Shown here one piece after another: positions 9,753 to 63,649 of a stretch of 64,000 nucleotides of DNA. The translations under genes were made by a program, and so were the position numbers. Every line of letters starts with the position of its first letter. Positions within the stretch are counted from its first letter, which is position 1. A model generated the notes under the pieces. That model was not told the origin of the DNA. It saw only the letters and a program-made list of their open reading frames with translations, and ran no database searches. The DNA lies in NCBI GenBank assembly GCA_949358305.1, contig OX442322.1, positions 9,486,001-9,550,000 of the forward strand, read 5' to 3'. The DNA comes from Strigamia acuminata. Taxonomy: Eukaryota > Arthropoda > Chilopoda > Geophilomorpha > Linotaeniidae.

Positions 9753-10198
9753 GTCAGACCTGGAATGGCAGAAAGTGAAGACAATCAATCAGCCAAAAAC
9801 CAAAGACACACACCAGACAAAACACAAGTACCAGTTGGCCAAACAGTGACCAAATACACTAACTGCTAAACTAAAGAACTGAGTGACACAACACTCAAAA
9901 ATTCTCTTAACTGGTGCTAAACTTTTCTATGCTGAGGAAATTGAGTGATGCAACACCCAAAAATTCCCTGAACTCTAAAGTAGACTATTTCCTGTTAACT
10001 ACTTCTAAACTGTGCTCTCCTGCTTGTGCAGTTATCTAGAGCGAGACAAACTTAAATTGCTACTTAAATGCAAAAAAACACACTTCCCCTCCCCCCTGAG
10101 AGGGCACATCAAGTAATCCCAATAAAAACCCAACCAAAACCACTTTAATCAACTAAATAATCTTCTTCTTTCAGGTGGCAGCAACTGATCAACTTGCA

Positions 10199-10209
10199 CA
10201 TTGCGTTGT
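10199..10209 (-). promoter_or_regulatory. Conserved leader motif ACAACGCAATG (element B)
   Basis: An exact copy of the motif shared by elements A-I, A-IV, C, F, G, H and K. It lies about 185 nt after the primer-binding site. It is complementary to CATTGCGTTGT, which resembles the anticodon arm of tRNA-His (inference). Confidence 0.65.
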
Positions 10210-10394
10210 GAATTACTTGGCAGACTCAGGATGTCCATGGCCGCTCTCACGTGACTCTCTGGCGTGCGCACTTGATGCCGGACGCTCGCGGAACCAGCCG
10301 CACAAGACGAACCAACTGGCGCGCACCAAACCACTTGAGCCACTTGCTGAACGCCCAAATGACCACTGAAACGCACACGCTGCGCAAACGTGCA

Positions 10395-10418
10395 CGAAAT
10401 CCTGGAATCACGGTACCA
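10395..10418 (-). promoter_or_regulatory. Primer-binding site, tRNA-His-like (element B)
   Basis: The minus strand reads TGGTACCGTGATTCCAGGAT followed by TTCG, 14 nt after the LTR end. It resembles the tRNA-His complement seen intact in element F but has G-to-A at position 5 and small insertions. Element C has the same variant. Confidence 0.7.
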
Positions 10419-10432
10419 AAAACTCAGCTCCC

Positions 10433-11986
10433 TGTAGCAAACAACCTTGGCTCTCACAAGGAATACTGGCGAATTGGTCTGTAAACTCTGGAGACCGCCC
10501 GAGACTGTATAGTGGTTGATGAAACAAGTTGACCTCTCAGCCCAAACTCTAGGCCTAACTGCATCATGAGAAATCAGGCCTAACTGCATTCAGTTGAAAA
10601 TGATAAAGGAAGCTCTCTGGATACTGGGGAAAACCTTGTGCCTCCAGTGAGGAGGAGAGCATGCAAAGCTTTCTACTCACTCATTTGCATATTTCCCTGA
10701 GTAGGAAATAAGATCAGAAAAGAATGTTCAAAGCAGGAGTGAAAACACATCAACTTTTTAATCTTAACAACAAGTAACAACTGATTGCTTCTTTAGCAAC
10801 CACACAACAACTGGTCACCTGCTTACAATAAATATCAGTGACCAAACAATACAGATTTGCATAATAACAATAGTGCCAACAAGGTTTCCGTATTCCTACA
10901 ACAGATGTCAAACTTAACATAAGTAAAGGCAAAACTTAACCTAACACCTTGATAACATTATGACCTGTGCAAACAGCACTTCACTTAAACTTAACAGATA
11001 ATTCAAAGGCTAAAACTAACATTAATTACACTCAAAACACAATGCTTAGCCCAAACCCAATCACCACCAACAGAGGGCGCAACGTGTCACAGTTTTAACC
11101 CCTTTACAACCATGCAATAACAAAGGTAAAGGCTTAGATTAATAACTCTTAATATTGGTAATTTATACAAACAATAACTAGTATATATTCCCTATGTCCA
11201 GGTTTCATTAAAACCCCAAACTAAATAATAACAGGGCACCAGTGCAGCACCAAATCCAAGATGGCGACCATGCAACTGCTAAAATGACGTGAATGGAGCC
11301 AAACAAGGTCGCAAGCGACTCACAGGCCTTCTCAACGATGGATCTGCGTCCTAGAACGGTCAGTACAACTTTCCCAGTGCTTGGACATTGAAACCCGACC
11401 AATTCAACTCATTTGCAGGACCCACACGACCACGAGAGGCGTCGCAAGGCGTGCGCTCACGCCCGACGCTCCCGAACGCTCACAAACGATGTCCAACGTT
11501 CATCCAGCGACCCAGGACACCTGGGGAGTTCCTTAAACACCAATACAAGTTAGTATAAATTAAATCACAAGCAAAACAAGCACTAAAACTGCAATTGTGC
11601 TTATTTCAGGTTCTTCCCGTCTCCCAGTTCACTTGCGCTATGGCGGCCATCTTGCCGGTGCACGACTATCTCCCTCGCAAGTGAACTGGAAACGGGAGAG
11701 AACTTACAAATACTAGAAACAACACCTAAAAGTGAAAAAGACACATAAAACAATTACAAAAGACTAAAAACACAACTTTCAAACATTCCAGGTGTGGCAG
11801 GCGAAGTGGCAACCCCCTTGAACTTCCAGGATCGTGTCAACAAAGCAGCAAACCAACTGGACATGTCAGATATGTGTTAAAAATCTATTCAAACTTGACA
11901 ACAAAATTAAAAAAGCCTTTTCTTCCTTTCAGAAGATAAACAACGTGAAATCTCCAGATCTTTTTGTTGCGTTCTTGCTCGCAACA
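10433..11986 (-). repeat. Element B 5' LTR
   Basis: The minus strand starts TGTTGCGAGCAAGAACGCAA at 11986 and ends GCTACA at 10433. It is homologous along its length to the element C LTR (42605-44184). The first 20 nt form an inverted repeat (TGTTGCG...CGCAACA). The 3' boundary is inferred from the CA dinucleotide before the primer-binding site, because the second LTR copy is off the window. Confidence 0.85.
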
Positions 11987-13535: not shown

Positions 13536-15006
13536 TGTTGCAAACAACGTGGAATAATTTAGAAACTACTTTTATTGCCAATTTGTGTCTGAATAAATGT
13601 TTCCAAAGTGTGTTTTATTTTGCATAACATTTCAGTTTTTATTTACAGGATTTTTGCATTATTAAAATGTTTTTAGTGCTTTCAGATACTGATGTTTGAT
13701 GAAATGTGATATTCCATTGTTTATTGCATTTATTTCTAGTGTTTATTGCGTGATTTTGTGTTACTTTATTCATTTTCTATCAATTTGTGTGATTTCGGGT
13801 GAAATTTGGTGCATTTGTCGTTAAACAGTTCACTAGTGTTATTGACGTGACGTCATATTTCAAGTTCTAGTTCGGTTTTTGTTCAAACTTCTAACCTTCC
13901 GTTTGGACGGAATTTTGATGGTTAGAATTGTTTTTGACATTGTTTTAGACTAATTTGGGGGTGATCTGTTGATTCGTGCACTCTAATTTCGTCCCGGAAC
14001 AGCCGTTTTTCTGCTACGAGCGATCGTGACGGACCCCGCATGTGCGTTGCCGTCCAAGATCGTTTCGTTCGGTTTGCGGTTGATTTCAAGTGTTCTTTCA
14101 TTAAAACGTGTCTTGTTTGCGGGAAATTACATTTCCTGAACTTATTTACTTATTCCAAAGTGTTTACATAAGTTATTTCTTGTGTTGAAATTCAAACCTT
14201 GTGTTTTGCCGCCAATGTAGAGTTTACCGGACGCCATGTTGGATTTTGTCGATGATTTGTAAATCTTTCATGTCGTTTTGTTTTTATATCTCAATTGGTG
14301 TTTGTACTATTTAGTTTTAGTGTATTTCAATGCAAAATCTTTACTTATTTGGTTTTGTGTGTGACTTTGAATTCAAACTTGATGATTATGTCATTTTGCT
14401 TGTCTTTGATTGGTTAGGCCCAATTGTCTGCCTAGCGATCACTGTTTTCGCTGTTTTCTCAGTGTTTTGATTAACGAATTTTGTTGTTACGATAGACTTT
14501 ATTATTCCTGAGTTTTTTGTGCTCATTTTGAGCTATTACACATTATTTTTAATACATTTCTCGTAATTTGTTGTCTTTGCTTGAAATTGCATTTCCTCCG
14601 TTTCCGTGGCAACGGAGTATTTTCTTTATTGTACTTTGACGACAATTGGCTTGTTGCGTGCCTTTTGATTGATAATGTGTAATTATTCAGTTGCCATTTT
14701 ATATTTGATTAAAATAGTCGTGTTAATGTTAACTCTTGTATTTTCTGCTTTTGACCCATTTCCAATGTGTCCTGAGTAGAGAACCATTTTTCCCAGACTG
14801 GCCAATGGATCAGCAAGCACTTGGATACCATGCAAAAGTGTTTCCAACAGTTAAACCTTCATGTAACAGGAGATTTTGAGGCGAATCAAGTGCATTTCCA
14901 CACGGTACACGTACGAATTTCACTATACGATCGTTTGAGTTTGTTGGCGGGAGTTTCGAATCGCCACATCTCAGTTCTTCTCTGTTCCTGTTGACTGACC
15001 GCAACA
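13536..15006 (+). repeat. Element D 5' LTR (1471 bp)
   Basis: Starts TGTTGCAAACAACGTGG and ends GACTGACCGCAACA, so the termini are the 6-bp inverted pair TGTTGC/GCAACA. AATAAA at 13592-13597 lies unusually close to the 5' edge. The LTR is AT-rich and non-coding. Confidence 0.95.
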
Positions 15007-15916
15007 TCGAATAAGAATTTTTGGTGCACGTGACCATGGATTTCGTCTGCTTCTTGTGGGTTTTTTCCGGTTCATCATTTGATACGTTCAACCGTGCGTC
15101 TGGTGCGATTGACGGAAATTACGTCCGTGAGTCGTCGTCTGCTAGAATGGTCGTCGTTCAACGTGGCAACAGCCACAACGGGGATTTATTTGGCGTCGAT
15201 CACGAACATTTCTGTGCAAGCAACGAGATTCTTCGGTCGACATCTTGGATTACACAACGCGCTGTGCTGGAAAGCCGATTTGCCCCTGAAATAATTGCTT
15301 ATTCTTGTGTTTTGCATTCAGTGCTTGTATTTCTAAGATTTTGGTTGCATGAGGGTATTGTATTGGGTATTTCAAAGCTGTTTTTGCTTTTTCCTAAGCT
15401 AGTTTTGAGGGAAAATTCACTGAAAGTGTATTTTATTGTGAATTTTTCAAGTGCTTTCTTGATTTTTGTGCATGCATCTCCATATAACTGGCTTAACCAG
15501 GGGAGATTTAGATTTTTTGGAGTTAGAAACTGTTCAGTCTCTCATTGCAAGAGCTGTCAGTTATTCTCGTGAATCTGATAGTGATTTTCTGGCTAGATTC
15601 GTTCCGTACGAACAGCAGAAATAATTCAAACTTGTGTAGGACTTTTTGAGTCACGTTTTTAATACGTGATCAAGGTCGCTCGTTTGTTTTAGCATCCTTG
15701 ATTGCTAAAACACTCGATATTCTTGTGTATTTTCAAGGTTTTTTGTCGTTTGGGCAAGAAAACTTTGAAAAATTCTGTTCTTTTAAAGTGAATGATTGTA
15801 AATTTTATTCTTTTCAAGTATAAAGTTTAAGTTATATTCTTTTTAAGTTTAAAGCGAAGTGTTTTGTTGTTCAAAATATTATCTTCTGTTTCATATTTTA
15901 CAGCCGTGAATTTGAG
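15007..15916 (+). other. Element D leader
   Basis: 910 nt between the LTR and the gag ATG. A 183-codon frame (15021-15572) begins inside the primer-binding site, and I do not call it a gene. A pyrimidine-rich stretch ending TTTTACAG at 15904 could be a splice acceptor 13 nt before the gag ATG (inference). It carries a decayed form of the leader motif, ACAACGCGCTG, at about 15253. Confidence 0.7.
15022..15045 (+). promoter_or_regulatory. Primer-binding site, tRNA-His-like (element D)
   Basis: TGGTGCACGTGACCATGGAT then TTCG, 15 nt after the LTR. It matches the element F site apart from single-base insertions. Confidence 0.65.
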
Positions 15917-18900
15917 ATGGAGAGAGATAGAGAAACAGAAACTTCCGAACGCGATTTACTCACTGTGGAGCAAATTGAAATACTAGAGACCAGGTGGGAA
16001 GCACAACTTTCATCTCTCAACGACTTGCTGTCTTTGTCGGAGAAGACGAGCGATCCAGGAGAGTTAGAAGCGCTTCTGCTGACTGCAAATCTGAAAGAGA
16101 CACGCGTTGTAAATGGCCTGAACGAGCTTCAAGTCTACTGTGAGCACGCGTTTTACCTTGAGAGTGTCGAGAAACTGGAATCATCACAAACGAGAGTGGA
16201 ACTTCTCCGAAGAAGGTGGGAGGTTTCAAAGCGGTCTCTTCCAACCCTTGGAGGAAGACTCAACATGTCTACAGTTTCCGGTGCAAATACATCCTTGAAT
16301 ACTTCGACTTCTTTCCGCAAGAATTCCAAGTTGCCCAAACTTGAATCTGTCAAGTTTGACGGGGAAATAATCAAATACAAAACGTTTAAGAGCAACTTTG
16401 AAACTTCTGTTCATAATGACCCAGATCTGAGCAGTGTTGAAAAGTTGCAATACCTTCAAACTATGTGTACAGGTGAGGCTGCGGCTTTGATTTCCACCTT
16501 TCCTTTGATCGAGGAATCCTATGACTTGGCACGGGAAGAACTTGATCGTAACTATGGCGATGAGGATGCGCAACAGACGGCTCTCATCCAATCCATTCGA
16601 GACTTGAAGACTGTTTCAAGCATATACCCGACAAAGGTGTTGAAAGCAAATTTGACGAAAATTTCTTCAACAATACGACTTCTTGAGCAACTGAAGATTC
16701 CTGTACGGACATCTGGTGCATTTCTGATGCCGGACATTCTTAGCAAGTTTCCTGCTCCAATGACTTTGCGTTTTTACCAAGTCCATGGACTGTCTTGCAA
16801 GAACATTTTGACTTTGCTTGACTTTTTTCAAAAGGAAGTAGCTATGGCAGAACGCACTGAAGCTGTTTCTCCATCTGAAAAAGCAAAGAAGGAAAAGTCT
16901 GAAGTTGAAAAGGCTAAAGTTAAAGGATCCATGACGACTTGCACCGCGACGCAAGACTCAAAATCGTCTTCAAGCTCCAAAGTGAAGACAGAGTCGAGAC
17001 AAGAGAACAAGTCTGCGAATTCCAAGGCACTCAAGTGCATTTTTTGTCAAGAAGACCATTTGAGCGGTTCTTGCAAAAAGGAGTTCGAAATCAATGCAAA
17101 GATTGAATTGATAAAGAAAAACAGACTTTGCTTTAATTGTTTTCGAACAGGTCATCGCGTTGGTGACTGCAAAGTGAAGTTTTCCTGCAAGCATTGTGGC
17201 GGAAGACATCATTCAACCATTTGTAAGAAGTCTGAGGTGAACAATTCTCCAAGTCCGACAGAGAAACCCAAGGAGTCGCAAGTGACCACACACGTCTCGT
17301 GCGCGATATCCACTTCTCTTCAACTTATGATTTTTGTTGCTGACCTCAAAACCAAATCTGGAGGTTCACACCACATCAGAGGCATGATTGACCCGGGTAG
17401 CCATCGGTCATTCATTACAACTGAACTGGTGAACCGACTAAAACTGAAGAAGTGCGGCAGTATTTCTGCGACCACACAACGGTTCAACGATTCTATGCCT
17501 GCTGCCACTGATTACGACGTATACAACGTTACTCTTCAAAGCAAGAATGACGCACAAAACTTCAAATTATCAATGCTTTCAGTGGAAAATTTGCCGAAAG
17601 TGCAGGGCATTTTGAATGCATCGGTAATAGAAAAGGTGAAGAAGCTGAATCTTGAACTTGCCGAAGATCTGCCAGCCAAGACATCTCAAATAGACATTCT
17701 TTTGGGAGTTGATGCTTGGTGGAAAGTCATTAAAGATGGCAAAAAGAAAATCAACGACGATCTTGGACTCATAAATACGTTATTTGGATGGGTGCTTATC
17801 GGAGCAGCCGGAAATACGGATTTATTCGAAGATGAAGCTGATTTGACTTCATGTTGTAATACTTGCAACATTGAAATCCATGAACAATTAGACAAACTTT
17901 GGAACTTAGAGGCAATTGGGATTAATGCTGGTAAAAAAGAATCCGATTTCACAAGAGATCGATTTGAAGCCACGACAAAACGTCTCGATGACGGAAGATA
18001 CGAGGTGATGCTGCCTTTTAATGGACAAGAAACTGACTTGGACTCAAACTGGGAGCTCGCACTTAACCAATTAGCCAACACATTGAAGAGAATCGACTCA
18101 AATGACGATTATAAGAAGCGATATGACGACTCAATGTGGCAGTACATTGAAGAAAACCACGCTGAGGAAGTTCCAACTGAAGAACGGTTCCTAAAGAAAG
18201 GAATATATAACATTCCACATCATCCAGTGATCAAAGAGGACCGGGAAACAACAAAATTCAGAGTCGTATTCAATGCGTCGTCTGCGAAAAAAGGAAAACG
18301 CTCATTAAATGACTGCCTTTTTCCTGGACCATCTTTGAATCCAGATTTGATATTGGTGATGGTCAGATTCAGATTGTATTGCATTCCAATCATTGCTGAC
18401 ATTAAACAAGCATTCCTCCAAGTAATGATAAACCCCACACATAGGAACTTTCTGCGTTTTTTGTGGGTTTCGAGGCAATATTTCAAGAACCCCTATTCGT
18501 GGAGAAATTTGTGGAATAATATTATGATTTTGAGGATGATAGTCGTACCATTTGGAGTTATTTCCTCTCCCTTTCTCCTGTGCGCAACAATTCGGAAACA
18601 AGCTGATCAATACAAGGAGACACATCCGAAAGAAGTTGATGCATTGGACGCCGGGATATACATGGATGATTTAACTTCTGGAGGTGATCACACGACAGAC
18701 ACAACAAAGCATTGTGAAGAATTAAAAATGATTTTGGATGACGGGAAACTCCCACTTGTTAAATGGGCGACAGCCAATGAAAAGGTTTTCAATGACATCA
18801 AAGAAAAGGGATTTCACATGAGAAGTGACGAATTCTGTGAACAGGGAGTGATAAAAATGCTTGGAATCTTATGGGACACGCAAGAAGACGTCCTCATGTT

Positions 18901-21169
18901 CAGGATTCCACAAATGGACATTATTCCGAACACAAGACGTGAAGTTCTCTCTTTGGTAGCCTCTATTTTCGACCCGATGGGACTCATTTCTCCAGTCGTT
19001 TTGAAAATGAGACTCCTTCTTCAAGACATTTGTCTACGTACAAAGAACTGGGACGGAAGAATTTCGGACTCAGAAAAGCAAGAGATTGACGAATGGAGTC
19101 GAGACATCCAGAAATTAAAAGACTATAAAGTACCTCGATGGTTAGAAACCTATTCTAATAAAGAGTTGAGTATTGAAGTTTTCTGTGATGCCAGCACTAA
19201 AGCCTTTGGATGTGCAATTTTCATCGTCAACAACAAAGGAAAAAGAACTTTGCTACTCAGCAAATGTAGACTGGCCCCTGCAAAAAAGATTACCTTGCCT
19301 AGACTTGAATTAACTGCTGCGGTCGTTGGTGTACGGATGTGTCAGTATTTGACAAATAACTTTCTGCCAGGTTATCCAATCAAAACCATTCGATATTTTT
19401 CTGATTCCACCATAACTTTGGCTTGGATCAACTCGAAGAAAAATGAGTGGAAGCCTTATGTTTCTAACCGCGTTCAGGAAATTGTTTCATCGTCTGACGC
19501 AAGCCAATGGTCACATATTCCGACAGAGTTCAATCCTGCAGATCTACTTACACAACCACACGATGCAAAAACATTAATGACAAATAAACTTTGGTGGAAC
19601 GGCGTGGACGTTTCTAAAATCGAAAAAGTCGAGGTCGTGCAAGAAAAACTACCCGAAGAAGAAAAAAGAATTGTGGTTATGAATGTTCAAGTCAAAGAGA
19701 CATTTATAAGCAAATTTTTCAAAAGATATCGCAACTTCAACCGTCTAGTTAGAGTATTTTCGTACATTTTGCGCTGGAAATCTCATCGTTTTCGCGGCGA
19801 AGATCTCGCGCAACGCGAAATGGAATCCAGTCAAATTAGGATTCTTCAATTTTCACAAGAAATCTACTTTCGAGAAGAGATCGAAGCTGTGAGAAACAAG
19901 ACTGAAGTTGAGAGATACTCCCCTTTGAAAAATTTTGAATATTTCTTAGATGAGGATGGACTTTTACGTTTGCGCAGCAGACTGAGATTGTCTTTGCTTT
20001 CGTTTGACGAAAAATACCCGATTCTTTTGCATAACGAAAGTTGGGTAACTAGATTAATTATTCGCAAGACTCATCTTGATCTCATGCATGGAGATTTGAG
20101 TGAAACACTTTACCGAATTCGTGAGAAATTTTGGGTTCTCCGAGGACGCAGGACCATTCAGACTGTGATAAGAGAATGTTCCGTTTGCAGAAGGACTAAA
20201 CTTGCAAGAAATAATCCGTCTACTGGAGAATTACCGAAAGAAAGAGTAACCCCAGCAGCTCCTTTTCAACACACCGGAATCGATCATTTAGGACCTATTT
20301 TTGTGGGAAAGGACAAAAAACGATTGAAGAAAACATACATTTTATTATTCACTTGTATGGTTACACGAAGTTTACATCTCGAAGTGTCCGAAGATTTATC
20401 CACTGAGAAATTCTTATTGGCATTCAGACGATTTTGTGCTCGTTACGGTTGTCCAGCAAAAGTCTTCTCGGACAACAGTAAAACCTTTGAAAAAGGAAGT
20501 ACACAAATTCAGTCATGGGGAAAACTGATTGGCCGTTCGGACATAAAAACATTTCTGTCTGAGAAAAGGATTGTATGGACATTTATCCCTCCACTTTCAC
20601 CGTGGATGGGAGGAGCTTGGGAGAGACTAGTCCGTTCAGTAAAGGATAAATTGCGGAAAACTTTATTGAGACACACTGTGGATTTAGAAAATTTACAAAC
20701 CTTGGTTCTTGAGATCAGCTCCGTGTTGAATTCACGACCTTTGTCGTATGTACACGAAAATATAGACGGCGGCAGAATCCTTTCACCTGAAAACTTTTTA
20801 ACGGGAGGTATGCCGAAATACATGATCAACAAGACCTTGAATGCAATCAAGAAAAGTGACCTTCGAAAACTCGACAAGAAAAGAAGACAGTTCATTTGGG
20901 ATTTTTGGAGTATATGGAAACACAGTTACTTGATGCAGTTAAGAAACTTTTATGAGACTAAAGGAGATAAATCTTTTCAAAACCCCAAAATTGATCAGAT
21001 TGTTCTTCTTGAAAAGATGGGAACCAACCCTTACTTTTGGCCTCTTGCCAGAATAAAACAAGTTTTTCCTGGTGATGATGGACTAATTCGCATCGTCAGT
21101 GTTGTGCTTCCCGATGGAAGAGAGTTGCGTCGTTCTGTAAGGCATATTAGAGCCCTTGAACTTGATTGA
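15917..21169 (+). CDS. Element D gag-pol polyprotein (gag, A17 protease, RT, RNase H, integrase)
   Basis: A 1750-aa polyprotein that builds the particle, copies the RNA and integrates the DNA. In order: acidic helical N terminus; DUF1759-like gag (about 138-290, starting KLPKLESVKF); three zinc knuckles beginning at Cys374, Cys405 and Cys424; A17 aspartic protease with DPGSHRS at 492; RT with YMDD at 915-918; RNase H with acidic residues in FCDAS (Asp1091) and YFSDST (Asp1163); integrase zinc domain (His1386 ... Cys1421 and Cys1424); integrase core Asp1456, Asp1519 and Glu1569; and a DUF5641-like C-terminal domain (about 1640-1750). The D-to-E spacing of about 50 is usual for BEL/Pao. No stop, frameshift or lost catalytic residue seen. 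The start is the first ATG of the frame, after a possible splice acceptor. No envelope domain. Confidence 0.97.
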   Translation: MERDRETETSERDLLTVEQIEILETRWEAQLSSLNDLLSLSEKTSDPGELEALLLTANLKETRVVNGLNELQVYCEHAFYLESVEKLESSQTRVELLRRRWEVSKRSLPTLGGRLNMSTVSGANTSLNTSTSFRKNSKLPKLESVKFDGEIIKYKTFKSNFETSVHNDPDLSSVEKLQYLQTMCTGEAAALISTFPLIEESYDLAREELDRNYGDEDAQQTALIQSIRDLKTVSSIYPTKVLKANLTKISSTIRLLEQLKIPVRTSGAFLMPDILSKFPAPMTLRFYQVHGLSCKNILTLLDFFQKEVAMAERTEAVSPSEKAKKEKSEVEKAKVKGSMTTCTATQDSKSSSSSKVKTESRQENKSANSKALKCIFCQEDHLSGSCKKEFEINAKIELIKKNRLCFNCFRTGHRVGDCKVKFSCKHCGGRHHSTICKKSEVNNSPSPTEKPKESQVTTHVSCAISTSLQLMIFVADLKTKSGGSHHIRGMIDPGSHRSFITTELVNRLKLKKCGSISATTQRFNDSMPAATDYDVYNVTLQSKNDAQNFKLSMLSVENLPKVQGILNASVIEKVKKLNLELAEDLPAKTSQIDILLGVDAWWKVIKDGKKKINDDLGLINTLFGWVLIGAAGNTDLFEDEADLTSCCNTCNIEIHEQLDKLWNLEAIGINAGKKESDFTRDRFEATTKRLDDGRYEVMLPFNGQETDLDSNWELALNQLANTLKRIDSNDDYKKRYDDSMWQYIEENHAEEVPTEERFLKKGIYNIPHHPVIKEDRETTKFRVVFNASSAKKGKRSLNDCLFPGPSLNPDLILVMVRFRLYCIPIIADIKQAFLQVMINPTHRNFLRFLWVSRQYFKNPYSWRNLWNNIMILRMIVVPFGVISSPFLLCATIRKQADQYKETHPKEVDALDAGIYMDDLTSGGDHTTDTTKHCEELKMILDDGKLPLVKWATANEKVFNDIKEKGFHMRSDEFCEQGVIKMLGILWDTQEDVLMFRIPQMDIIPNTRREVLSLVASIFDPMGLISPVVLKMRLLLQDICLRTKNWDGRISDSEKQEIDEWSRDIQKLKDYKVPRWLETYSNKELSIEVFCDASTKAFGCAIFIVNNKGKRTLLLSKCRLAPAKKITLPRLELTAAVVGVRMCQYLTNNFLPGYPIKTIRYFSDSTITLAWINSKKNEWKPYVSNRVQEIVSSSDASQWSHIPTEFNPADLLTQPHDAKTLMTNKLWWNGVDVSKIEKVEVVQEKLPEEEKRIVVMNVQVKETFISKFFKRYRNFNRLVRVFSYILRWKSHRFRGEDLAQREMESSQIRILQFSQEIYFREEIEAVRNKTEVERYSPLKNFEYFLDEDGLLRLRSRLRLSLLSFDEKYPILLHNESWVTRLIIRKTHLDLMHGDLSETLYRIREKFWVLRGRRTIQTVIRECSVCRRTKLARNNPSTGELPKERVTPAAPFQHTGIDHLGPIFVGKDKKRLKKTYILLFTCMVTRSLHLEVSEDLSTEKFLLAFRRFCARYGCPAKVFSDNSKTFEKGSTQIQSWGKLIGRSDIKTFLSEKRIVWTFIPPLSPWMGGAWERLVRSVKDKLRKTLLRHTVDLENLQTLVLEISSVLNSRPLSYVHENIDGGRILSPENFLTGGMPKYMINKTLNAIKKSDLRKLDKKRRQFIWDFWSIWKHSYLMQLRNFYETKGDKSFQNPKIDQIVLLEKMGTNPYFWPLARIKQVFPGDDGLIRIVSVVLPDGRELRRSVRHIRALELD

Positions 21170-21227
21170 TGTGTGTTTTGCAGACTTCTCTCATCTCTCT
21201 TCTCTCTCTTTCTCGCTGGCAATTCGT

Positions 21228-22697
21228 TGTTGCAAACAACGTGGAATAATTTAGAAACTACTTTTATTGCCAATTTGTGTCTGAATAAATGTTTCCAAAG
21301 TGTGTTTTATTTTGCATAACATTTCAGTTTTTATTTACAGGATTTTTGCATTATTAAAATGTTTTTAGTGCTTTCAGATACTGATGTTTGATGAAATGTG
21401 ATATTCCATTGTTTATTGCATTTATTTCTAGTGTTTATTGCGTGATTTTGTGTTACTTTATTCATTTTCTATCAATTTGTGTGATTTCGGGTGAAATTTG
21501 GTGCATTTGTCGTTGAACAGTTCACTAGTGTTATTGACGTGACGTCATATTTCAAGTTCTAGTTCGGTTTTTGTTCAAACTTCTAACCTTCCGTTTGGAC
21601 GGAATTTTGATGGTTAGAATTGTTTTTGACATTGTTTTAGACTAATTTGGGGGTGATCTGTTGATTCGTGCACTCTAATTTCGTCCCGGAACAGCCGTTT
21701 TTCTGCTACGAGCGATCGTGACGGACCCCGCATGTGCGTTGCCGTCCAAGATCGTTTCGTTCGGTTTGCGGTTGATTTCAAGTGTTCTTTCATTAAAACG
21801 TGTCTTGTTTGCGGGAAATTACATTTCCTGAACTTATTTACTTATCTCAAAGTGTTTACATAAGTTATTTCTTGTGTTGAAATTCAAACCTTGTGTTTTG
21901 CCGCCAATGTAGAGTTTACCGGACGCCATGTTGGATTTTGCCGATGATTTGTAAATCTTTCATGTCGTTTTGTTTTTATATCTCAATTGGTGTTTGTACT
22001 ATTTAGTTTTAATGTATTTCAATGCAAAATCTTTACTTATTTGGTTTTGTGTGTGACTTTGAATTCAAACTTGATGATTATGTCATTTTGCTTGTCTTTG
22101 ATTGGTTAGGCCCAATTGTCTGCTTAGCGATCACTGTTTTCGCTGTTTTCTCCTTGTTTTGATTAATGAATTTTGTTGTTACGATAGACTTTATTATTCC
22201 TGAGTTTTTTGTGCTCATTTTGAGCTATTACACATTATTTTTAATACATTTCTCGTAATTTGTTGTCTTTGCTTGAAATTGCATTTCCTCCGTTTCCGTG
22301 GCAACGGAGTATTTCTTTATTGTAAATTGCCGACAATTGGCTTGTTGCGTGCCTTTTGATTGATAATGTGTAATTATTCAGTTGCCATTTTATATTTGAT
22401 TAAAATAGTCGTGTTAATGTTAACTCTTGTATTTTCTGCTTTTGACCCATTTCCAATGTGTCCTGAGTAGAGAACCATTTTTCCCAGACTGGCCAATGGA
22501 TCAGCAAGCACTTGGATACCATGCAAAAGTGTTTCCAACAGTTAAACCTTCATGTAACAGGAGATTTTGAGGCGAATCAAGTGCATTTCCACACGGTACA
22601 CGTACGAATTTCACTATACGATCGTTTGAGTTTGTTGGCGGGAGTTTCGAATCGCCACATCTCAGTTCTTCTCTGTTCCTGTTGACTGACCGCAACA
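21228..22697 (+). repeat. Element D 3' LTR (1470 bp)
   Basis: Begins after CTTTCTCGCTGGCAATTCGT and ends GACTGACCGCAACA. Differences from the 5' LTR include TTAAACAG/TTGAACAG, GTCGATG/GCCGATG and a small cluster near 22315-22330. Confidence 0.95.
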
Positions 22698-41846: not shown

Positions 41847-42604
41847 CTATGTAATTCTTTGACGTAATAGGTTTGAAATCCATTCAGGTATTCTTTTACC
41901 AACAGCGACCAAGCTTAACTTGACCAGTGTATTTATCATCTGTTTCTGTTTCAGTGGATCTTTTGAATAGAAACCATAGTCTTGATGAGTGAAAGAAAAT
42001 TTCTGATTTTTGCCTACAAACGACTTCATCTTTGTGCAAGGCGATCTATATCGATACTTAGGACGACGTGCATCTGCTTCCTTTACCAATTCGATTTCTG
42101 CGCCAACATTTCGATCTTGTTTGATAATAGTTTGACTCAAAACGTCTCTTGTATTTCTGAATAGTAAAGGTTTTTTGTCTATTTTCAGAAACTCGAGAAG
42201 CTTTTCCTTTTTTCCCAAGAACATTGGGCCTTTAATCGATTGAATTTCCTCTAGATTACTTCGAATCGAGCCCCAGAAATTTAAAAAGTCCGGGTGGGAT
42301 AACCTTACACTCCAATTCCGAGTCCAACTCTTCTCCACACGGTAACGAAGAATATTTTCCCGGCCGAAAGAACCAAGTAGCCAGCTCTTGACTGCATGTC
42401 CAGATCCTTCCTTTCGAGAAAGCATGGTCTTTGATGATTCGGGAAGGTTTGAGTTGACTGTGCAGAAACAACTTGACTTTTCATCTGAAATTTGACTCAA
42501 CTTCTTGCGATGGACGACTTCCGATGCTTGAGTTGCGATTAGGACCGGATTTTTTGATTTGTTCCGGATAATTTGGCCTTGTTCTACCGAGAGACACGAT
42601 ACAG
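41847..42604 (-). CDS. Element J C-terminal coding end with degenerate thymidine-kinase-like segment
   Basis: About 252 open codons before the stop. Similarity to the end of the H polyprotein is visible in three places: FLNFW ahead of the P-loop (H has LNFW); IKGPMFLGKKEKLLEFL (42180-42236) against H IIGPMYAGKTTKLLKLL; and the tail IPEWISNLLRQRI against H IPPWIPNLIRQRI. The P-loop has lost the Thr/Ser after GK. The DEGQFF block and the two CXXC zinc pairs are absent, so it should not be an active thymidine kinase. The frame has stayed open in spite of this, which may mean another role or recent decay. The beginning of the protein is beyond element C. Confidence 0.75.
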
Positions 42605-44184
42605 CTGTTGCGAGCAAGAACGCAACAAAAAGGATCTGGAGATTTCACGTTGTTCATCTTCTGAAAGAAAGAAAAGGCTTTTTAATTTTGTTGTCAAGTT
42701 TAGATAGATTTTTAACACATATCTGACATGCCCAGTTGGTTTGCCGCTTTGTTGTCACGATCCTGGTAGTTCAAGAGGGTTGTCACTTCGCCTGCCACAC
42801 CTGGAATGTTTGAAAGTTGTGTTTTTAGTCTTTTGTAATTAATTTATGTGTCTTTTTCACGTTTCTGAGTTATTTCTAGTATTTGTAAGTTCTCTCCTGT
42901 TTCCAGTTCACTTGCGAAGGAGATAGGCGTGCATCGGCAAGATGGCCGCCATAGCGCAAGTGAACTGGGAGATGGGAAGAACCTGAAATAAGCACAATTG
43001 TAGTTTTTGGTGCTTATTTTGCTTGTGATTTAATTTATACTAACTTGTATTGGTGTTTAAGGTAGTCCACAGGTGTCTTGGGTCGCTGGATGGGCGTTGG
43101 ACATCGTTTGTGAGCGTTTGCGAGCGTCGGGCGTGAGCGTACGCCTTGCGACGCCTCTCGTGGTCGTGTGGGTTCTGCAAATGAGTTGAATTGGTCGGGT
43201 TTCAATGCCCAAGCACTGGGAAAGCTGTACTGACCGTTCTAAGACGAAGATCCATCGTTGAGAAGGCCTGTGAGTCGCTCGCGACCTTGTTTGGCTCCAT
43301 TCACGTCATTTTAGCAGTTGCATGGTCGCCATCTTGGATTTGGTGCTGCACTGTTGCCCTGTTATTATTTCTTTTGGGGTTTTGAGGAGACCTGGACATA
43401 GGGAATATTTACTAGTTATTGTTTGTATAAATTACCAATATTAAGGGTTGTTAATCTAAGCTTTTACCTTTGTTATTGTATGGTTGTTACGGGTTAAGGT
43501 TTGTGACACTTTGCGCCCTCTTTTGGTGGCAATTGGGGTTTGGGCTCAGCATTGTGTTTTGAGTGCAGTTAATGTTAGTTTTAGCCTTTGAATTATCTGT
43601 TAAGTTTAAGTGAAGTGCTGTTTGCACAGGTCATACTGTTTTCAAGGTGTTAGGTTAAGTTTTGCCTTTATTTATGTTAAGTTTGACATCTGTTGTCTAT
43701 ATACGGAAACCTTGTTGGCACTATTGTTATTATTCAAATCTGTATTGTTTGGTCACTGACATTTATTGTAATCAGGTGACCAGTTGTTAAGAGTAGGTTG
43801 CTAAAGAAGCAACTCAGTTGTTATCAGTTGTTAAGTATTAAAGCCAGTTGATGTTTTTCCTCCTTCTTTGGATAAATTATTCCTGGGTTTATTTTACTTC
43901 AATAAACAGGATGACTTGTGAGTAGAGAGCTTTGCCTGCTCTCCTCCTCCCTGGGAGCACAGAATTTCTACCCAGCAGCTAAAGAGGTTTTGCCAATCAC
44001 TTCATCTAAATGCAGTTAGGCCTAGTTTCATGCAGTCAGGCCTAATCCTTCTTCAAGTTAGGCTTGGGCTCAGAGAAAGGATTTCAGCTTGTTTCATCAA
44101 CCACTATACAGTCTCGGGCGGTTTCCAGAGTTTGGTGACCAATTCGCCAGTCCTCCCCTGTGAGATCCAAGGTTGTTTGCTACA
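42605..44184 (+). repeat. Element C 5' LTR (about 1580 bp)
   Basis: Starts TGTTGCGAGCAAGAACGCAA and ends TTGTTTGCTACA. It aligns throughout with the B 5' LTR (minus strand, 11986-10433). The 3' edge is inferred. Confidence 0.85.
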
Positions 44185-44197
44185 GGGAGCTGTTTTT

Positions 44198-44221
44198 TGG
44201 TACCGTGATTCCAGGATTTCG
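44198..44221 (+). promoter_or_regulatory. Primer-binding site, tRNA-His-like (element C)
   Basis: TGGTACCGTGATTCCAGGAT then TTCG, the same variant as in B. Confidence 0.7.
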
Positions 44222-44280
44222 TGCACGTGTGTACAGCGCGCATGGAAAAGAGGTCATTTGGATGTTCAGCAAGTGATTCA

Positions 44281-44285
44281 AGTGG
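44281..44285. repeat. Target-site duplication agtgg (left) of element H
   Basis: Matches agtgg at 50876-50880. The joined sequence reads through like the B leader. Confidence 0.95.
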
Positions 44286-45643
44286 TGTTTCTGGCAAGGT
44301 CGCAGGCGACAACCAGGCCAGAAGGAGGGGCGGCAATACTTGACTGCTGCTTGGCTAAAATTGATACACAGAAGTTGGCCAAAGACTTGAAGAAATGCAA
44401 ACACTGGAATTGAACTTGCTGCTTCACATGTTGATCTGCCACTGGTGAGTTCAAGGAGGAGGAAGGAGGATTTTTCTACTCACTGCACATTGCTTTCTGG
44501 TTGTATAGAGAAATGAGACTTGGAGAGAAATAAAAAGCAACCATTTTATTCTCTAAATTCTTAACAAGACTACTACAATTGAATCACGAGGATATTACAA
44601 AGAAGTCACACTTTAACAATAATAAGAAACAACAAGTGTAACTATCTCCACATTGTATAAGGACACTTGCACTTAAAGTTACAGAGGTCTCTAAGTGCTT
44701 GTAAAGAGAAATAAGTACTGCTGGCACAACAAAACTACCGTAGAAGTTAATAGTTGAAAACACATAAGCCTAACAGCAAGTATTTGACATTAAATGCAAA
44801 AGTATACATTAACAACAGTCTCTAACCACAATGCTCGTTGAGAACTAAATTATTCACTCTAAAACACACTGAACAACTCATAAAATAGAGAAAAGAATAA
44901 GTAAAGACATTTTAGACCAATGAGCTGGCAACTTTACAGTAAGTGCAGAAGTTAAGTTATAAATCAACACAGATAAATCTTAAACTTAACACTTTTACAT
45001 TGCATAATAATTAAGTGATTAATTATTAATCAGAACCCACAAAAACTCTTTGGGATTAAACATTTTCTCCTCTCTTTACAGATACAAGTAGACCACTCCC
45101 ACAGTAATGGCCGACAATGTAAACAGAGATCACTTGCAGGAAGATAGAAAGGCTTGAAATTAGCTCACTAGACAGGCTACACACAATCTAAGTTAACAAA
45201 ACGCTTAATTGGTTAGTAATATACAGAAAACAAACAGAAATTGATTGAAACAGCTTAAAACTGATAATAACATACATTTCTCATTCTAGTACCCTTTTGC
45301 TGTCTGAGAGCATCATTACACCTTGTCACTACATTGACAGTAGTGGACTGGAAACAGGAAAACACTTGGAAACATCAAAACATGCATAACACAGGTAAAC
45401 AAGATAGAAAATAAATTCTAAGTGGATAAATAACTAATGTAAAAACTCTTTTCTTCCCAGATTTATCCGGTCAGATCAACCAGTACTGAGAAATTCACTC
45501 AAACTAACTCAAAGAAGACTTATATTCAAATAAGTGTCTAATTAAATTCCCAATCTAAGATAAATATTAAAAACCCTTTTTAATAATTCCAGATGACTAA
45601 TTTTTAAGACGTTTAGCAGCTTTCCTTTATGTTGCTAGCAACA
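44286..45643 (-). repeat. Element H 3' LTR (1358 bp)
   Basis: The left copy. On the minus strand it starts TGTTGCTAGCAACA at 45643 and ends CTTGCCAGAAACA at 44286. Confidence 0.95.
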
Positions 45644-45678
45644 TAGATTGCCGGCGAAAAGAAAGTGCGAACAACCCA

Positions 45679-48600
45679 TCATTTAGTTCGATTACTTCTG
45701 GTCTTTGATGATAATATTTGGGAGACCTCTTTCACCTTTTTGTATTCCACTCTGGGTGGCATGATTCTTTGACGGATCAAATTTGGTATCCACGGAGGTA
45801 TTCTTCGGTTGACAATCATACAACTAAGTCGAATAATTCCGTTGATGATTTTCCTTTTCGTCTCTAGGGACTTCATGGGCTTTGAGAAACATACTCGACA
45901 GGTTGGTTTGTATTTGTCGATCCCTCCTATCATCTTGACTCGGGTTTCGTGCGAAATTCGTCTTGAAAATTCAGCTTTATCTCCGCAAAAATAACATTTT
46001 GCTTGTAGTTTCACAACAGACTCGGCTAGTGGAACTAACTCGGATATCTGATCAAATGGCTTCCTCTTGAAGTCGACGTCTAATGCGGCGACTATTACCT
46101 TTTTCTTTTGCTCAGCCATTTCATTTGAAAAAGTAAAAATGTCGGGAAAAAACTGTCCTTCGTCAATTCCGATTGTCTTCACTAATTTCGTTTTTTCCAC
46201 AGCATTGGTTAGGCTACTGGTCGCGATTGCTTCTCGTCGATGACCGTCGTGGGTCACGACTTCGGTTTTACTGTAACGATCGTCATTGGAGTGTTTAATT
46301 AGCAGGGACGACGTCTTCTCTTCCTTTTCTAAAAGCTTCAATAACTTGGTCGTTTTCCCCGCATACATTGGACCAATGATGAGATGAATTCCCTTTTGAT
46401 TGGTTGACAAATCAATTTTCTTTTTCCAGAAATTCAGAATCACGTTTCCACTCCATCTCACGATTGCACACAATTTGGGTAAACTGGGCACTTGGTTTGT
46501 AAGTAATTCGACGTTCTTTCTCCCTGACTCTAACTGATTTCGCCCTCGTAATTCCGGCTTCATGTCCGAGCTTGGAGTTCTGTTGACCAATCCTCCATCC
46601 TTGAACGACTTTTTCGTTTTTTGGAGGGTGGTTTCCAGTTCCTCTTTCTCCAGACCACTGGAGAGGCTCGCGGCAAAACAAGAAGGTGTGACGTCTGTCT
46701 GTTTATTCACACCGGGTTCGCCATTCATGTTGGGCAGTGATTTCGGAATTAATTGGACTATTTTGTTTTCGTCATTTTCAGGTTGATTTGAGATCACTTC
46801 TTCTTTGGACTCGACCGCCATGCAAGAAATGTTGCACGCTGCCATGTTTTCTTCAAGCGGGTTGTTTGGTTTCAGTCGACCGTTTAGAATCCACCCAAAA
46901 ATTGTCTCCATTAATCCCAACTCGTCGTTGATTTTTCGGCTTCCACCTTGACAAATCTTCCACCATGCGTTGCTTCCTAATAAGACGTCAATGTCTTCCG
47001 ATTCTGACGGATGTATCTCAGCCATCTCAAGTCCGAGTGATTGGACTTGCTTTATGGCTTCTGCTCCAATTATCCCTTTGACTTTCGGGAGTGTGTCGGT
47101 TTCTAATGCAAGGATTGATGTCTTTTTTGTTCCGTGTCTTGATTGTAGTTCGAATCTAAAGACATCATGTGTCGTCGGAACTGGCTTTTTGTTGAGCAGA
47201 CACTGTGTCATCGTGTGTAGTGTCTCGATCTTTTGCATCCGGAATTTATTTACTAGTCTCTTCGTGACGTAGGAGCGATGACTTCCTGGATCTAGTAATC
47301 CGCGGACGGGGTACATGTCTCCATTTTTCTTCACAAAAAGAGCAGTGAAGACCATCAGTTGAATCTCCACCGACTCGGTAAGCGATACATTAGTAGACAC
47401 GTTTTCTTCTTTTGGTGTAATCGCTTTTTCTTTGTTGTTTTTGTTGCAGATCGATGTGTGATGTCTTCCACCACACAAGCGACAACAAAACTTCACGGTA
47501 CATTCTTTGGCTGTGTGGTTATATCTCAAGCAGTTGAAACAAAGTCGTTTCTTCTTCACTATTTCGATCCTCGCTGGTACATCGAGATCCGCATCACAAT
47601 TTGCGTGTGCGTGATCACCATCACAATAAGCGCAGGCGGGTTTGCGGTTTGGATTTGACTTGGAATTCATACTCAATTTTCCATTCTCGGAAGTCACGAA
47701 TGAGGACATGGTTCCAGTTGGTCTTTCTCTTGTTTCCTTTGAAGTTTTCTCAAATTTTTCTGACTTCTTCAGATGAGCGCGCTTAAGGAGAACGCTTTCT
47801 TCCGACAATTCAGCCAGTTGTATCTCGGTTGCTACGAAGTCCAGAAAAACGTTAACATCATCAACTTTTCCTTGATGCTTTCGGTAAAAACGTTGGGAGA
47901 TCTCCGGTGGAAATTTTCTAAGTAGTTCTGGAATAAGGTACGTTCCAGTAGTGTCAACTGACACAGACAGTTGCGCCATGGTCCGGACAGCAGATGCCAA
48001 TGACGTGAATAGAGCTTTAAGTGGCTCGATTGGGTAGAGATCGAAAACGGGTTTCGACTCCCTAATCATCTTTGAAATCGCATTTCTCTGCGTGTTTTCA
48101 GATCCGAATAGACTCTCCAATGTATTTTTCGCTAATGGGTAGGCGTCATCAGTTATTGGGTACGACTTGATTGCGGATTCTGCAGCCCCAGTGCAGCATG
48201 ATCTCAGATATATAAGCTTTTCCACGTTCGAAAGCTCCGTGTTCTGATCAACTGCTGATTCGAATAAATTCGCAAAGCCTCTATATTCAGTTGCATCGCC
48301 ACTAAATTTGGCAATGTCGGTTTTCGGCAATCTCGTGTTTCTCCTAGATGAAGCGGACGTCTGGTTTAAACTGGAATTCTGTCCCGGATGGGAACCAAAT
48401 TGCCCTGCCATTTTTCCAGACACTTTGGCTCTTTGTTTCAATAAATTAACTCTGGTTCTAATGTCTTCAATTCGTTGAAGCCCTGCTAAATAATCCTCTC
48501 TTTTTGACTCGTCTTTAAGAGCTTTCAATTCGTCGGCGAGATCACTCAATTGCTGGTCAACCGTTATTTGCATGGCTTCCAGCTCTCCTCCGTCTAGAAT

Positions 48601-48705
48601 GTTGACTGAAGATCCCAGCAGATCCTCGGCTCCTTGAGCCTTTGCTTTCCAAATGACCTCCTTTTCCTCGAGATCAGCAGCGGATAATGTAGCCATAATC
48701 CTCAC
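45679..48705 (-). CDS. Element H gag - A17 protease - TK1-type thymidine kinase fusion
   Basis: 1008 aa. Residues 1-110 are helical. A DUF1759-like gag follows at about 126-270 (RLPKTDIAKFSGD, LLRKFPPEISQRFY). Zinc knuckles start at Cys358, Cys389 and about Cys407. An A17 protease has DPGSHRS at 472 and ends near FGWILNG (about 605). After a low-complexity linker (about 613-772) comes a complete type II thymidine kinase (about 773-943): P-loop GPMYAGKT (778-785), Walker-B-like DEGQFFPD (Asp848, catalytic-base Glu849), VIVAALD, KRKPF, LVPLAESVVKL, zinc ligands Cys904, Cys907, Cys936 and Cys939, and GGIDKY in the thymidine-binding loop. A basic tail with IPPWIPNLIRQRI closes the protein. The family phosphorylates thymidine to dTMP. 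No KEN-type degradation signal is seen. Met1 or Met4 (48696) could start; RT and integrase are absent. Confidence 0.96.
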   Translation of the reverse strand: MRIMATLSAADLEEKEVIWKAKAQGAEDLLGSSVNILDGGELEAMQITVDQQLSDLADELKALKDESKREDYLAGLQRIEDIRTRVNLLKQRAKVSGKMAGQFGSHPGQNSSLNQTSASSRRNTRLPKTDIAKFSGDATEYRGFANLFESAVDQNTELSNVEKLIYLRSCCTGAAESAIKSYPITDDAYPLAKNTLESLFGSENTQRNAISKMIRESKPVFDLYPIEPLKALFTSLASAVRTMAQLSVSVDTTGTYLIPELLRKFPPEISQRFYRKHQGKVDDVNVFLDFVATEIQLAELSEESVLLKRAHLKKSEKFEKTSKETRERPTGTMSSFVTSENGKLSMNSKSNPNRKPACAYCDGDHAHANCDADLDVPARIEIVKKKRLCFNCLRYNHTAKECTVKFCCRLCGGRHHTSICNKNNKEKAITPKEENVSTNVSLTESVEIQLMVFTALFVKKNGDMYPVRGLLDPGSHRSYVTKRLVNKFRMQKIETLHTMTQCLLNKKPVPTTHDVFRFELQSRHGTKKTSILALETDTLPKVKGIIGAEAIKQVQSLGLEMAEIHPSESEDIDVLLGSNAWWKICQGGSRKINDELGLMETIFGWILNGRLKPNNPLEENMAACNISCMAVESKEEVISNQPENDENKIVQLIPKSLPNMNGEPGVNKQTDVTPSCFAASLSSGLEKEELETTLQKTKKSFKDGGLVNRTPSSDMKPELRGRNQLESGRKNVELLTNQVPSLPKLCAIVRWSGNVILNFWKKKIDLSTNQKGIHLIIGPMYAGKTTKLLKLLEKEEKTSSLLIKHSNDDRYSKTEVVTHDGHRREAIATSSLTNAVEKTKLVKTIGIDEGQFFPDIFTFSNEMAEQKKKVIVAALDVDFKRKPFDQISELVPLAESVVKLQAKCYFCGDKAEFSRRISHETRVKMIGGIDKYKPTCRVCFSKPMKSLETKRKIINGIIRLSCMIVNRRIPPWIPNLIRQRIMPPRVEYKKVKEVSQILSSKTRSNRTK

Positions 48706-49213
48706 CGAGAAATGAAGAATTCAAGGATCAGTTCAGGATTCAAACTCAACTTAACTGACTAAATTGGTTAACAAGAAATTGTCTAATTCTTTTACACTCT
48801 AGGATTTACTGAACACACAAAAACAGGATGGATATCCACAAACTGTTAACAGGATTGAAACACACGGGATGTTAACAGGATTGGCAAATTAACCCCCAAA
48901 ATTCAATAATTAAAGGTAATTGACAATTCTCTTATTTTCACAATTGAGTTTCTGACTAGATACTCGTTTTAAATTGGGATACCAACACTAAAGCTTGGTA
49001 TTATTCACTAATTCACTGGATATTCTCTAAATTCCACAAACTGGAATCGAGAATTTATTCAAACTGTTAAGACTTAAACTTCTTCTCCCCCCAACTACAC
49101 CAGTTTCTAATCAAAAACTCTTTTTGAAATAATTACAGCAGCAAATTCGGATATTATTCTATTTAAATAATAATTCTTAATAATTATTTCTTCAAATCTT
49201 CTTGTAGGATGTA

Positions 49214-49224
49214 CATTGCGTTGT
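49214..49224 (-). promoter_or_regulatory. Conserved leader motif ACAACGCAATG (element H)
   Basis: About 270 nt after the primer-binding site, with the extended form ACACAACGCAATGTAC. Confidence 0.65.
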
Positions 49225-49491
49225 GTTTGGAATTGATTGTCGTGCAGGATCGCTCGTACTCTCGAAGCCTTGCTTGATCCAAGTTGAAAAACATCTTGAC
49301 CATCTTGACAATTTGAGAATCCAACTTGAAAAACCCACTTTTTTGCCTGTGAAAGGCTGACGAGAGCATACACTTCACTGTAGTGGCACAGCTTCAATGG
49401 CACTTTACACATAAAAGCTTTGCACAGCTTGAGAACAAAACCCACTGATGAATTTTGCAGCACACATGAAGGTCCACTGAGATAACTGGAA

Positions 49492-49514
49492 GAAATCCTT
49501 GGTTCACGGTACCA
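49492..49514 (-). promoter_or_regulatory. Primer-binding site, tRNA-His-like (element H)
   Basis: The minus strand reads TGGTACCGTGAACCAAGGAT then TTC, 3 nt after the LTR. It differs from the exact element F site by one substitution and single-base insertions. Confidence 0.7.
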
Positions 49515-49517
49515 AAT

Positions 49518-50875
49518 TGTTTCTGGCAAGGTCGCAGGCGACAACCAGGCCAGAAGGAGGGGCGGCAATACTTGACTGCTGCTTGGCTAAAATTGATACA
49601 CAGAAGTTGGCCAAAGACTTGAAGAAATGCAAACACTGGAATTGAACTTGCTGCTTCACATGTTGATCTGCCACTGGTGAGTTCAAGGAGGAGGAAGGAG
49701 GATTTTTCTACTCACTGCACATTGCTTTCTGGTTGTATAGAGAAATGAGACTTGGAGAGAAATAAAAAGCAACCATTTTATTCTCTAAATTCTTAACAAG
49801 ACTACTACAATTGAATCACGAGGATATTACAAAGAAGTCACACTTTAACAATAATAAGAAACAACAAGTGTAACTATCTCCACATTGTATAAGGACACTT
49901 GCACTTAAAGTTACAGAGGTCTCTAAGTGCTTGTAAAGAGAAATAAGTACTGCTGGCACAACAAAACTACCGTAGAAGTTAATAGTTGAAAACACATAAG
50001 CCTAACAGCAAGTATTTGACATTAAATGCAAAAGTATACATTAACAACAGTCTCTAACCACAATGCTCGTTGAGAACTAAATTATTCACTCTAAAACACA
50101 CTGAACAACTCATAAAATAGAGAAAAGAATAAGTAAAGACATTTTAGACCAATGAGCTGGCAACTTTACAGTAAGTGCAGAAGTTAAGTTATAAATCAAC
50201 ACAGATAAATCTTAAACTTAACACTTTTACATTGCATAATAATTAAGTGATTAATTATTAATCAGAACCCACAAAAACTCTTTGGGATTAAACATTTTCT
50301 CCTCTCTTTACAGATACAAGTAGACCACTCCCACAGTAATGGCCGACAATGTAAACAGAGATCACTTGCAGGAAGATAGAAAGGCTTGAAATTAGCTCAC
50401 TAGACAGGCTACACACAATCTAAGTTAACAAAACGCTTAATTGGTTAGTAATATACAGAAAACAAACAGAAATTGATTGAAACAGCTTAAAACTGATAAT
50501 AACATACATTTCTCATTCTAGTACCCTTTTGCTGTCTGAGAGCATCATTACACCTTGTCACTACATTGACAGTAGTGGACTGGAAACAGGAAAACACTTG
50601 GAAACATCAAAACATGCATAACACAGGTAAACAAGATAGAAAATAAATTCTAAGTGGATAAATAACTAATGTAAAAACTCTTTTCTTCCCAGATTTATCC
50701 GGTCAGATCAACCAGTACTGAGAAATTCACTCAAACTAACTCAAAGAAGACTTATATTCAAATAAGTGTCTAATTAAATTCCCAATCTAAGATAAATATT
50801 AAAAACCCTTTTTAATAATTCCAGATGACTAATTTTTAAGACGTTTAGCAGCTTTCCTTTATGTTGCTAGCAACA
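49518..50875 (-). repeat. Element H 5' LTR (1358 bp)
   Basis: The right copy. It starts on the minus strand at 50875 with the 14-bp palindrome TGTTGCTAGCAACA and keeps a constant 5232-bp offset from the left copy. Confidence 0.95.
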
Positions 50876-50880
50876 AGTGG
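50876..50880. repeat. Target-site duplication agtgg (right) of element H
   Basis: Partner of 44281-44285. Confidence 0.95.
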
Positions 50881-51000
50881 GTTGGTGCGTGCCAGTTGGT
50901 TCGTTTGTACGGCTGGTTCCGTGAGCGGCCGGCATCAAGTGCGCACGCCAGAGAGTCACGTGAGAGCGGCCATTGACGTCCTGAGTCTGCCAAGTCAAAC

Positions 51001-51011
51001 ACAACGCAATG
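51001..51011 (+). promoter_or_regulatory. Conserved leader motif ACAACGCAATG (element C)
   Basis: About 210 nt after the primer-binding site once H is removed. The context AACACAACGCAATGTGCAAG matches B. Confidence 0.65.
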
Positions 51012-63070: not shown

Positions 63071-63081
63071 CATTGCGTTGT
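63071..63081 (-). promoter_or_regulatory. Conserved leader motif ACAACGCAATG (A-IV)
   Basis: Same position in the element as in A-I. Confidence 0.65.
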
Positions 63082-63623: not shown

Positions 63624-63649
63624 CATCCTGGTCAAGCAAAACGGCACCA
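63624..63649 (-). promoter_or_regulatory. Primer-binding site, tRNA-His-like with insertion (A-IV)
   Basis: Same interrupted form as A-I: TGGTGCCGT, extra TTTGCT, TGACCAGGAT. Confidence 0.7.

Follow-up and report, generated by a model that had tools for sequence, protein, structure and literature searches.

A BEL/Pao-type LTR retrotransposon of Strigamia acuminata with a thymidine kinase fused to Gag and no pol

Element H occupies 6590 bp (positions 44286-50875, minus strand) of a 64,000-bp stretch of the genome of the centipede Strigamia acuminata (assembly GCA_949358305.1, contig OX442322.1, positions 9,486,001 to 9,550,000), hereafter the window. It is a recent insertion of a non-autonomous long terminal repeat (LTR) retrotransposon of BEL/Pao type. 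Its sole open frame joins a gag, a protease region and a TK1-type thymidine kinase (TK), as an earlier note on this DNA had proposed in describing a non-autonomous BEL-type element with TK in place of pol. This description was supported, and H is regarded here as a BEL-type element that is non-autonomous and whose cargo is of a new kind. The marginally favoured explanation is that a BEL lineage devoid of pol captured the kinase as a Gag fusion, borrows pol functions from other elements, and makes deoxythymidine monophosphate (dTMP) for reverse transcription.

Structure and insertion site of element H

The LTRs of H (1358 bp) are identical, so that the insertion is considered recent, and they are bordered by a 5-bp target site duplication (TSD), AGTGG, as previously claimed (Table 1). 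An empty paralogous site was found within the window: the 300-bp flanks of H plus one TSD copy align through the junction with 484 of 599 columns identical and no insertion there. The target of H (flanks 43986-44285 and 50876-51180) is another repeat, entered about 70 bp past a stretch of that repeat resembling a primer binding site (PBS).

The frame of 1008 codons (48705..45679) stops 35 bp short of the 3' LTR, both values being those of the earlier note; when the internal region was shuffled 300 times by mononucleotides, no frame exceeded 194 aa. Of the domain order given in that note, gag (DUF1759) and TK (PF00265) were confirmed by Pfam, and the A17 protease was ruled out, as no Pfam match to it exists in the frame. 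The corresponding region is DUF1758-like by alignment to a pol-bearing BEL element of the window, with which H shares 36% identity across gag and protease region, as well as the motif DPGS; D-T/S-G is the usual motif of such proteases. The kinase domain retains the phosphate loop, THD, DEGQFF and all four zinc cysteines, and its predicted structure is that of a TK1 fold. NCBIfam likewise labels it thymidine kinase, but with a score below the bacterial cut-off (149.2 against 183 bits).

Table 1. Features of element H and related sequences in the window
Feature	Position	Strand	Evidence
Paralogous stretch including the empty site of the H insertion	10015..11986	-	alignment within window
Candidate helper BEL/Pao element, one 1750-aa frame: gag, DUF1758, reverse transcriptase, A17, integrase zinc domain	13536..22697	+	LTRs 99.1% identical
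Family F (kinase stub) fragment, C-terminal portion that carries the tail and a remnant of Walker A	41847..42617	-	
TSD AGTGG, left copy	44281..44285	.	
3' LTR of H, 1358 bp	44286..45643	-	100% identity to 49518-50875
Sole open frame, 1008 aa from GTG (1005 from ATG at 48696): gag, zinc knuckle, protease region, linker, thymidine kinase, tail	45679..48705	-	
C-terminal tail, predicted helices, common to families A, B and F	45682..45885	-	
TK1-type thymidine kinase PF00265, residues 773-940	45886..46389	-	Pfam E 2.6e-54, 184.2 bits vs cut-off 20.6
DUF1758-like protease region, approximate bounds	46777..47406	-	alignment to pol-bearing BEL element, not Pfam
CCHC zinc knuckle, motif CFNCLRYNHTAKEC	47497..47544	-	motif by direct reading; weak zf-CCHC Pfam match, E 0.15, below cut-off
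Gag core DUF1759 (PF03564), residues 134-275	47881..48306	-	Pfam E 2e-17
Putative PBS of H	49497..49514	-	similar stretch in family B and pol-bearing BEL element
5' LTR of H, 1358 bp	49518..50875	-	100% identity to 44286-45643
TSD AGTGG, right copy	50876..50880	.	

Distribution of the Gag-kinase fusion in the genome

The genome searched comprised 237.5 Mb in 157 contigs. A kinase query returned 201 candidates, 150 of which were scored and assigned to families by counting by hand: 54 belonged to family A, that of H, 42 to a second gag-protease-kinase family (B), two to a B-like variant, and 52 were standalone TKs. Within family A, 51 of 54 matches span the whole query and 47 lie in frames of 1009-1013 aa; one carries a stop. 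These 47 full-length frames are found at different loci on 13 contigs, so the survey for further copies with flanking gag suggested in the earlier note was positive, family B coming in addition. Matches to the LTR of H are mostly paired about 5.2 kb apart (best 40 of 122 candidates). In family B, 38 of 42 matches lie in frames of 991-1002 aa and none carries a stop. Six B loci were read: LTRs of about 960 bp, 99.6-100% identical, were present at four, a 718-bp LTR match at 100% at one, and none at the last. Among the B copies, L010 had no TSD, and at L011-L013 an ambiguity of one to a few bases was left.

A gag query retrieved families A and B, followed by a copy on contig C14 at 48% and by family F at 44% identity (best 120 of 1060). 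Family F keeps the gag, the protease region and the tail, its kinase being reduced to a stub, and 19 of its 31 matches lie in the full 892-aa frame; this family has spread without a kinase. The view of H as a single case was consequently rejected on account of the many A copies, of the second kinase-bearing family and of the kinase-stub family F.

Other related copies deserve mention. The C14 copy (G000:C14:38740-41447; L052 = 38740-39640) has an 897-aa frame with a gag 48% like that of H, ending in membrane-like segments, without kinase, i.e. in a different C-terminal module. Two old tandem relatives of family A on contig C5 (G000:C5:15440200-15455400), L027 and the broken L028, may have undergone recombination between families, as judged from their uneven synonymous divergence. 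Standalone TKs (L015-L020, L022-L026; families C, D and E) amount to at least 52 single-frame copies outside gag frames, with 34 C, 13 D and 5 E among the 150 scored and further C copies in a query with insect TK1. Their frames mostly measure 190-280 aa, except for two longer ones that extend across masked N, and some copies adjoin masked stretches. The standalone copies compared have several kb of dispersed repeat in common, and no other domain exceeded the Pfam cut-off in the open reading frames scanned.

Conservation of the kinase and selection

Across 29 database TKs, 51 columns were invariant. H keeps 43 of these residues, core motifs included, and family B also keeps 43, with T instead of the THD aspartate, a residue lost in families D and E too. 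Families A and B each retain the phosphate loop and DEGQFF together with the four cysteines. Between these two families, identity reaches 57% in the kinase, 55% in gag and 60% in the protease region, against 30% in the linker. Using the simple NG86 method for non-synonymous (dN) and synonymous (dS) divergence, the linker gave a dS of 1.3 between A and B and the tail one of 3.5; gag, the knuckle and protease regions and the kinase were saturated.

A usable comparison was provided by A and L028, with a kinase dN of 0.043, dS of 0.223 and dN/dS of 0.19; the ratios were 0.13 in the protease region, 1.28 in the linker and 0.24 in the tail. Comparison of A with L027 gave 0.18 (kinase), 0.14 (protease region) and 1.04 (linker). 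Fisher tests on synonymous and non-synonymous counts, kinase against linker, yielded p 0.0006 and 0.003 (rounded counts). Within family B, L009 and L013 gave a kinase dN/dS of 0.21, from few changes. Judged from one diverged comparison, the kinase of family A is thus under purifying selection. The dN/dS check advised in the earlier note accordingly returned about 0.19 for the kinase, in the comparison that could be made, and about 1.3 for the adjoining linker.

Origin of the kinase

Kinase trees were built from 43 and 38 TKs, the sampling including neither a TK1 of the host or its order nor a viral TK. The TK1 tree proposed earlier was therefore obtained with database TKs, but the host TK1 to be placed in it was not found: a genome query with insect TK1 returned only long single-frame matches, none of them exon-like, among 150 scored of 200 candidates, in which exons would rank low. 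The kinases of A and B form one clade (support 96/91 and 96/93), which groups with standalone copies from this genome (96/96 and 98/97), all of them apart from the eight arthropod TK1s sampled. On these grounds the donor is placed in a TK lineage that is repeated in this genome. Two topologies were rejected, namely Gag-TK grouped with the eight arthropod TK1s to the exclusion of the local copies (p-AU 0.007), and Gag-TK, local copies and arthropod TK1s together (p-AU 0.010). The latter rejection counts against a simple derivation from an arthropod TK1, provided that the long local branches do not mislead.

Database searches yielded no closer relatives: the kinase-plus-tail region had four matches, none with a gag domain listed, among proteins of 0.55-1.75 times its length only; gag-protease had seven matches listed, each of which carries DUF1759 and A17 but no TK (8000 candidates scored). 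The closest database TK was at most 52% identical to the H kinase, among the best 120 of 3183 TKs.

Missing pol functions and a candidate helper

In agreement with the earlier note, no reverse transcriptase (RT), RNase H or integrase was detected in H by Pfam or tblastn. The pol part of the window BEL frame had no tblastn match at E<=1 when searched against H and single copies of B and F; as a control, the same pol part recovered itself and two other stretches of the window. No gag match was located in a frame longer than 1013 aa among 120 scored of 1060 candidates, a pol in a separate frame being checked in H and in those single B and F copies. A helper may be at hand, since a pol-bearing BEL element with an intact frame and LTRs 99.1% identical occurs at a distance of 21 kb from H. 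Another BEL pol part, cut by the window edge, occurs at 6-1853 (minus), 59.6% identical to the pol of 13536-22697.

Proposed mechanism and alternatives

The favoured explanation could proceed as follows. A TK1-type kinase would have been captured and fused to the C terminus of Gag, in the simplest case a single time and ahead of the split between A, B and F, in a lineage that has retained its own gag and protease region and from which pol is absent. The Gag-kinase polyprotein would enter particles, pol would come in trans from BEL elements like that at 13536-22697, and the kinase would convert thymidine to dTMP, allowing reverse transcription to proceed where deoxythymidine triphosphate (dTTP) is low. 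The proposals of the earlier note that the particle is supplied with dTTP and that RT and integrase are provided by what it called D-like elements are plausible. In a fuller version, put forward tentatively and as possible rather than probable, a long-lived pol-less BEL lineage packages the Gag-fused TK and thereby has its own dTMP in or beside the particle, with borrowed RT and integrase, the kinase having been captured once from the TK lineage repeated in the genome and later discarded by one branch.

Several observations weigh against this account. H and B each differ from the database TKs at 8 of 51 invariant columns, and family B may be altered in activity because its THD aspartate is replaced by T. 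The LTR bodies of H and of the pol-bearing element have no similarity at E<=0.01. As to selection, the 99.6% identity between L027 and L028 across 5085 bp makes them one comparison. Moreover, dS is uneven along the A-L028 alignment (saturated in gag, 0.48 in the protease region, 0.08 in the linker, 0.22 in the kinase), which suggests a mosaic and weakens the rate comparisons, while eight close A copies, with at most two changes each in kinase and tail, offer too few for a selection test. Finally, the kinase is not needed in general, because F spread with a kinase stub only. The spread of F says that any benefit of the kinase depends on tissue, time or host background, or else that F draws on another Gag.

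The divergent columns and the missing THD aspartate of B would also suit a structural role, in which the kinase-derived part serves oligomerisation or Gag trafficking together with the tail rather than catalysis. TK1-type enzymes are oligomers, and the tail is conserved in all three families, F with its mere stub included. Such a role seems unlikely, however, as the phosphate loop, DEGQFF and the four cysteines were kept together in A and B, and F manages without the kinase core. More doubtful is the reading that, instead of just promoting reverse transcription of the element itself, the enzyme mainly counters a host block lowering the pools of deoxynucleoside triphosphates (dNTPs), or provides salvage where host TK1 is weak: its biochemical output would be identical, and the lack of exon-like TK1 in the insect TK1 query fits it within the limits given above.

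Independent captures of local TK copies by A and B are improbable. Trees that unite the standalone copies with A alone (p-AU 0.234), or with B alone (p-AU 0.092), were not rejected, but the best tree unites A and B (96/93), the kinase occupies a similar position behind the protease region in both, the tail is common, and F has a stub with this tail. A chance acquisition of TK, which copies amplified recently would carry as a neutral passenger, would account for the near identity of the eight compared A copies and for the spread of F; it is nonetheless very improbable in view of the kinase dN/dS of 0.18-0.19 against 1.04-1.28 for the linker in the same comparison, and of a kinase conserved between A and B to the same degree as gag. 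The earlier note had named as refuting outcomes an assembly error that brought together a gag fragment and a TK1 retrocopy, or a kinase with no second copy and neutral dN/dS, and neither is what was found. H is not an assembly join because the fusion recurs in families A and B across the genome; with the 47 assembled A loci, the paired LTR matches and the empty site, an artefact was rejected and has next to no probability left.

Comparison with known systems

According to the profile of Belpaoviridae by the International Committee on Taxonomy of Viruses, LTRs measure 0.2-1.2 kb and genomes 4.2-10 kb (PMC8742986). The size of H is inside this genome range and its LTR just outside the LTR range. 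LTRs, DUF1759 gag, zinc knuckle and DUF1758-like protease region are shared with BEL/Pao elements (genus Semotivirus), which however have a pol with RT, RNase H and integrase where H carries the kinase. They use an 18-nt PBS to tRNA-Arg or tRNA-Gly, and the PBS-like stretch of H is similar in B and in the full element. A polypurine tract of about 10 nt precedes their 3' LTR. In H, the stretch at that place is pyrimidine-rich, just as it is in B, F and the full BEL element.

Plant TR-GAG elements resemble H in having an LTR pair and one gag frame without pol (PMC8704663). A gag-only LTR element is reported to transpose in Arabidopsis (PMC8704663), and since it moved, its other proteins can come from elsewhere. 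TR-GAG has a single gag frame, to which H adds protease region and kinase; furthermore, TR-GAG (ATCOPIA63) has a highly similar, potentially autonomous relative (PMC8704663), whereas for H, a BEL element, the nearest pol-bearing gag seen is 36-37% identical.

A retroviral analogy for the cargo is the nucleocapsid (NC)-dUTPase of beta-retroviruses, a nucleotide-metabolism enzyme within the Gag-protease polyprotein, as in H, although the enzyme and its position differ and the retrovirus has its own pol (PMC4531489). The same paper describes NC-dUTPase as a product of that polyprotein and states that non-primate lentiviruses need dUTPase in non-dividing cells (PMC4531489). By analogy, Gag-kinase would act like this fusion, with a different enzyme. 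LTR elements of bdelloid rotifers have likewise gained dUTPase and other enzymatic domains, but they are gag-pol elements, and the word kinase is absent from the main text of that report (PMC5408684), as from the main text of a BEL/Pao paper (PMC3118150). With metazoan cytosolic TK1 (PF00265), H shares domain, core motifs, zinc cysteines and predicted fold; it differs by its fusion to Gag and by grouping with the repeated TKs of this genome. The author of the earlier note knew of no BEL/Pao element with TK, and no LTR element with a thymidine kinase was found here in the open-access literature, among the matches listed, Repbase being outside this scope.

dUTPase is a nucleotide enzyme known in retroviruses and some LTR elements, and a Gag-fused TK would serve the same purpose by a second route. 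Whether the supply of dNTPs limits retrotransposition could then be examined within a single genome, where families with the kinase (A, B) and with a kinase stub (F) occur naturally. A pol-less LTR lineage is also indicated, one that has lasted long enough for identity in gag and protease region to fall to 45-58%, a persistence longer than expected for a non-autonomous element.

Other observations

Inverted 5.5-kb copies, 99.95% identical, occur at window positions 3057-8580 and 58477-64000. A 1753-bp direct repeat (23065-24817 and 30050-31802, 100% identical) possibly represents the LTRs of another recent element. TTAGG arrays, the telomere repeat typical of arthropods, were present at 4 of the 20 contig ends read.

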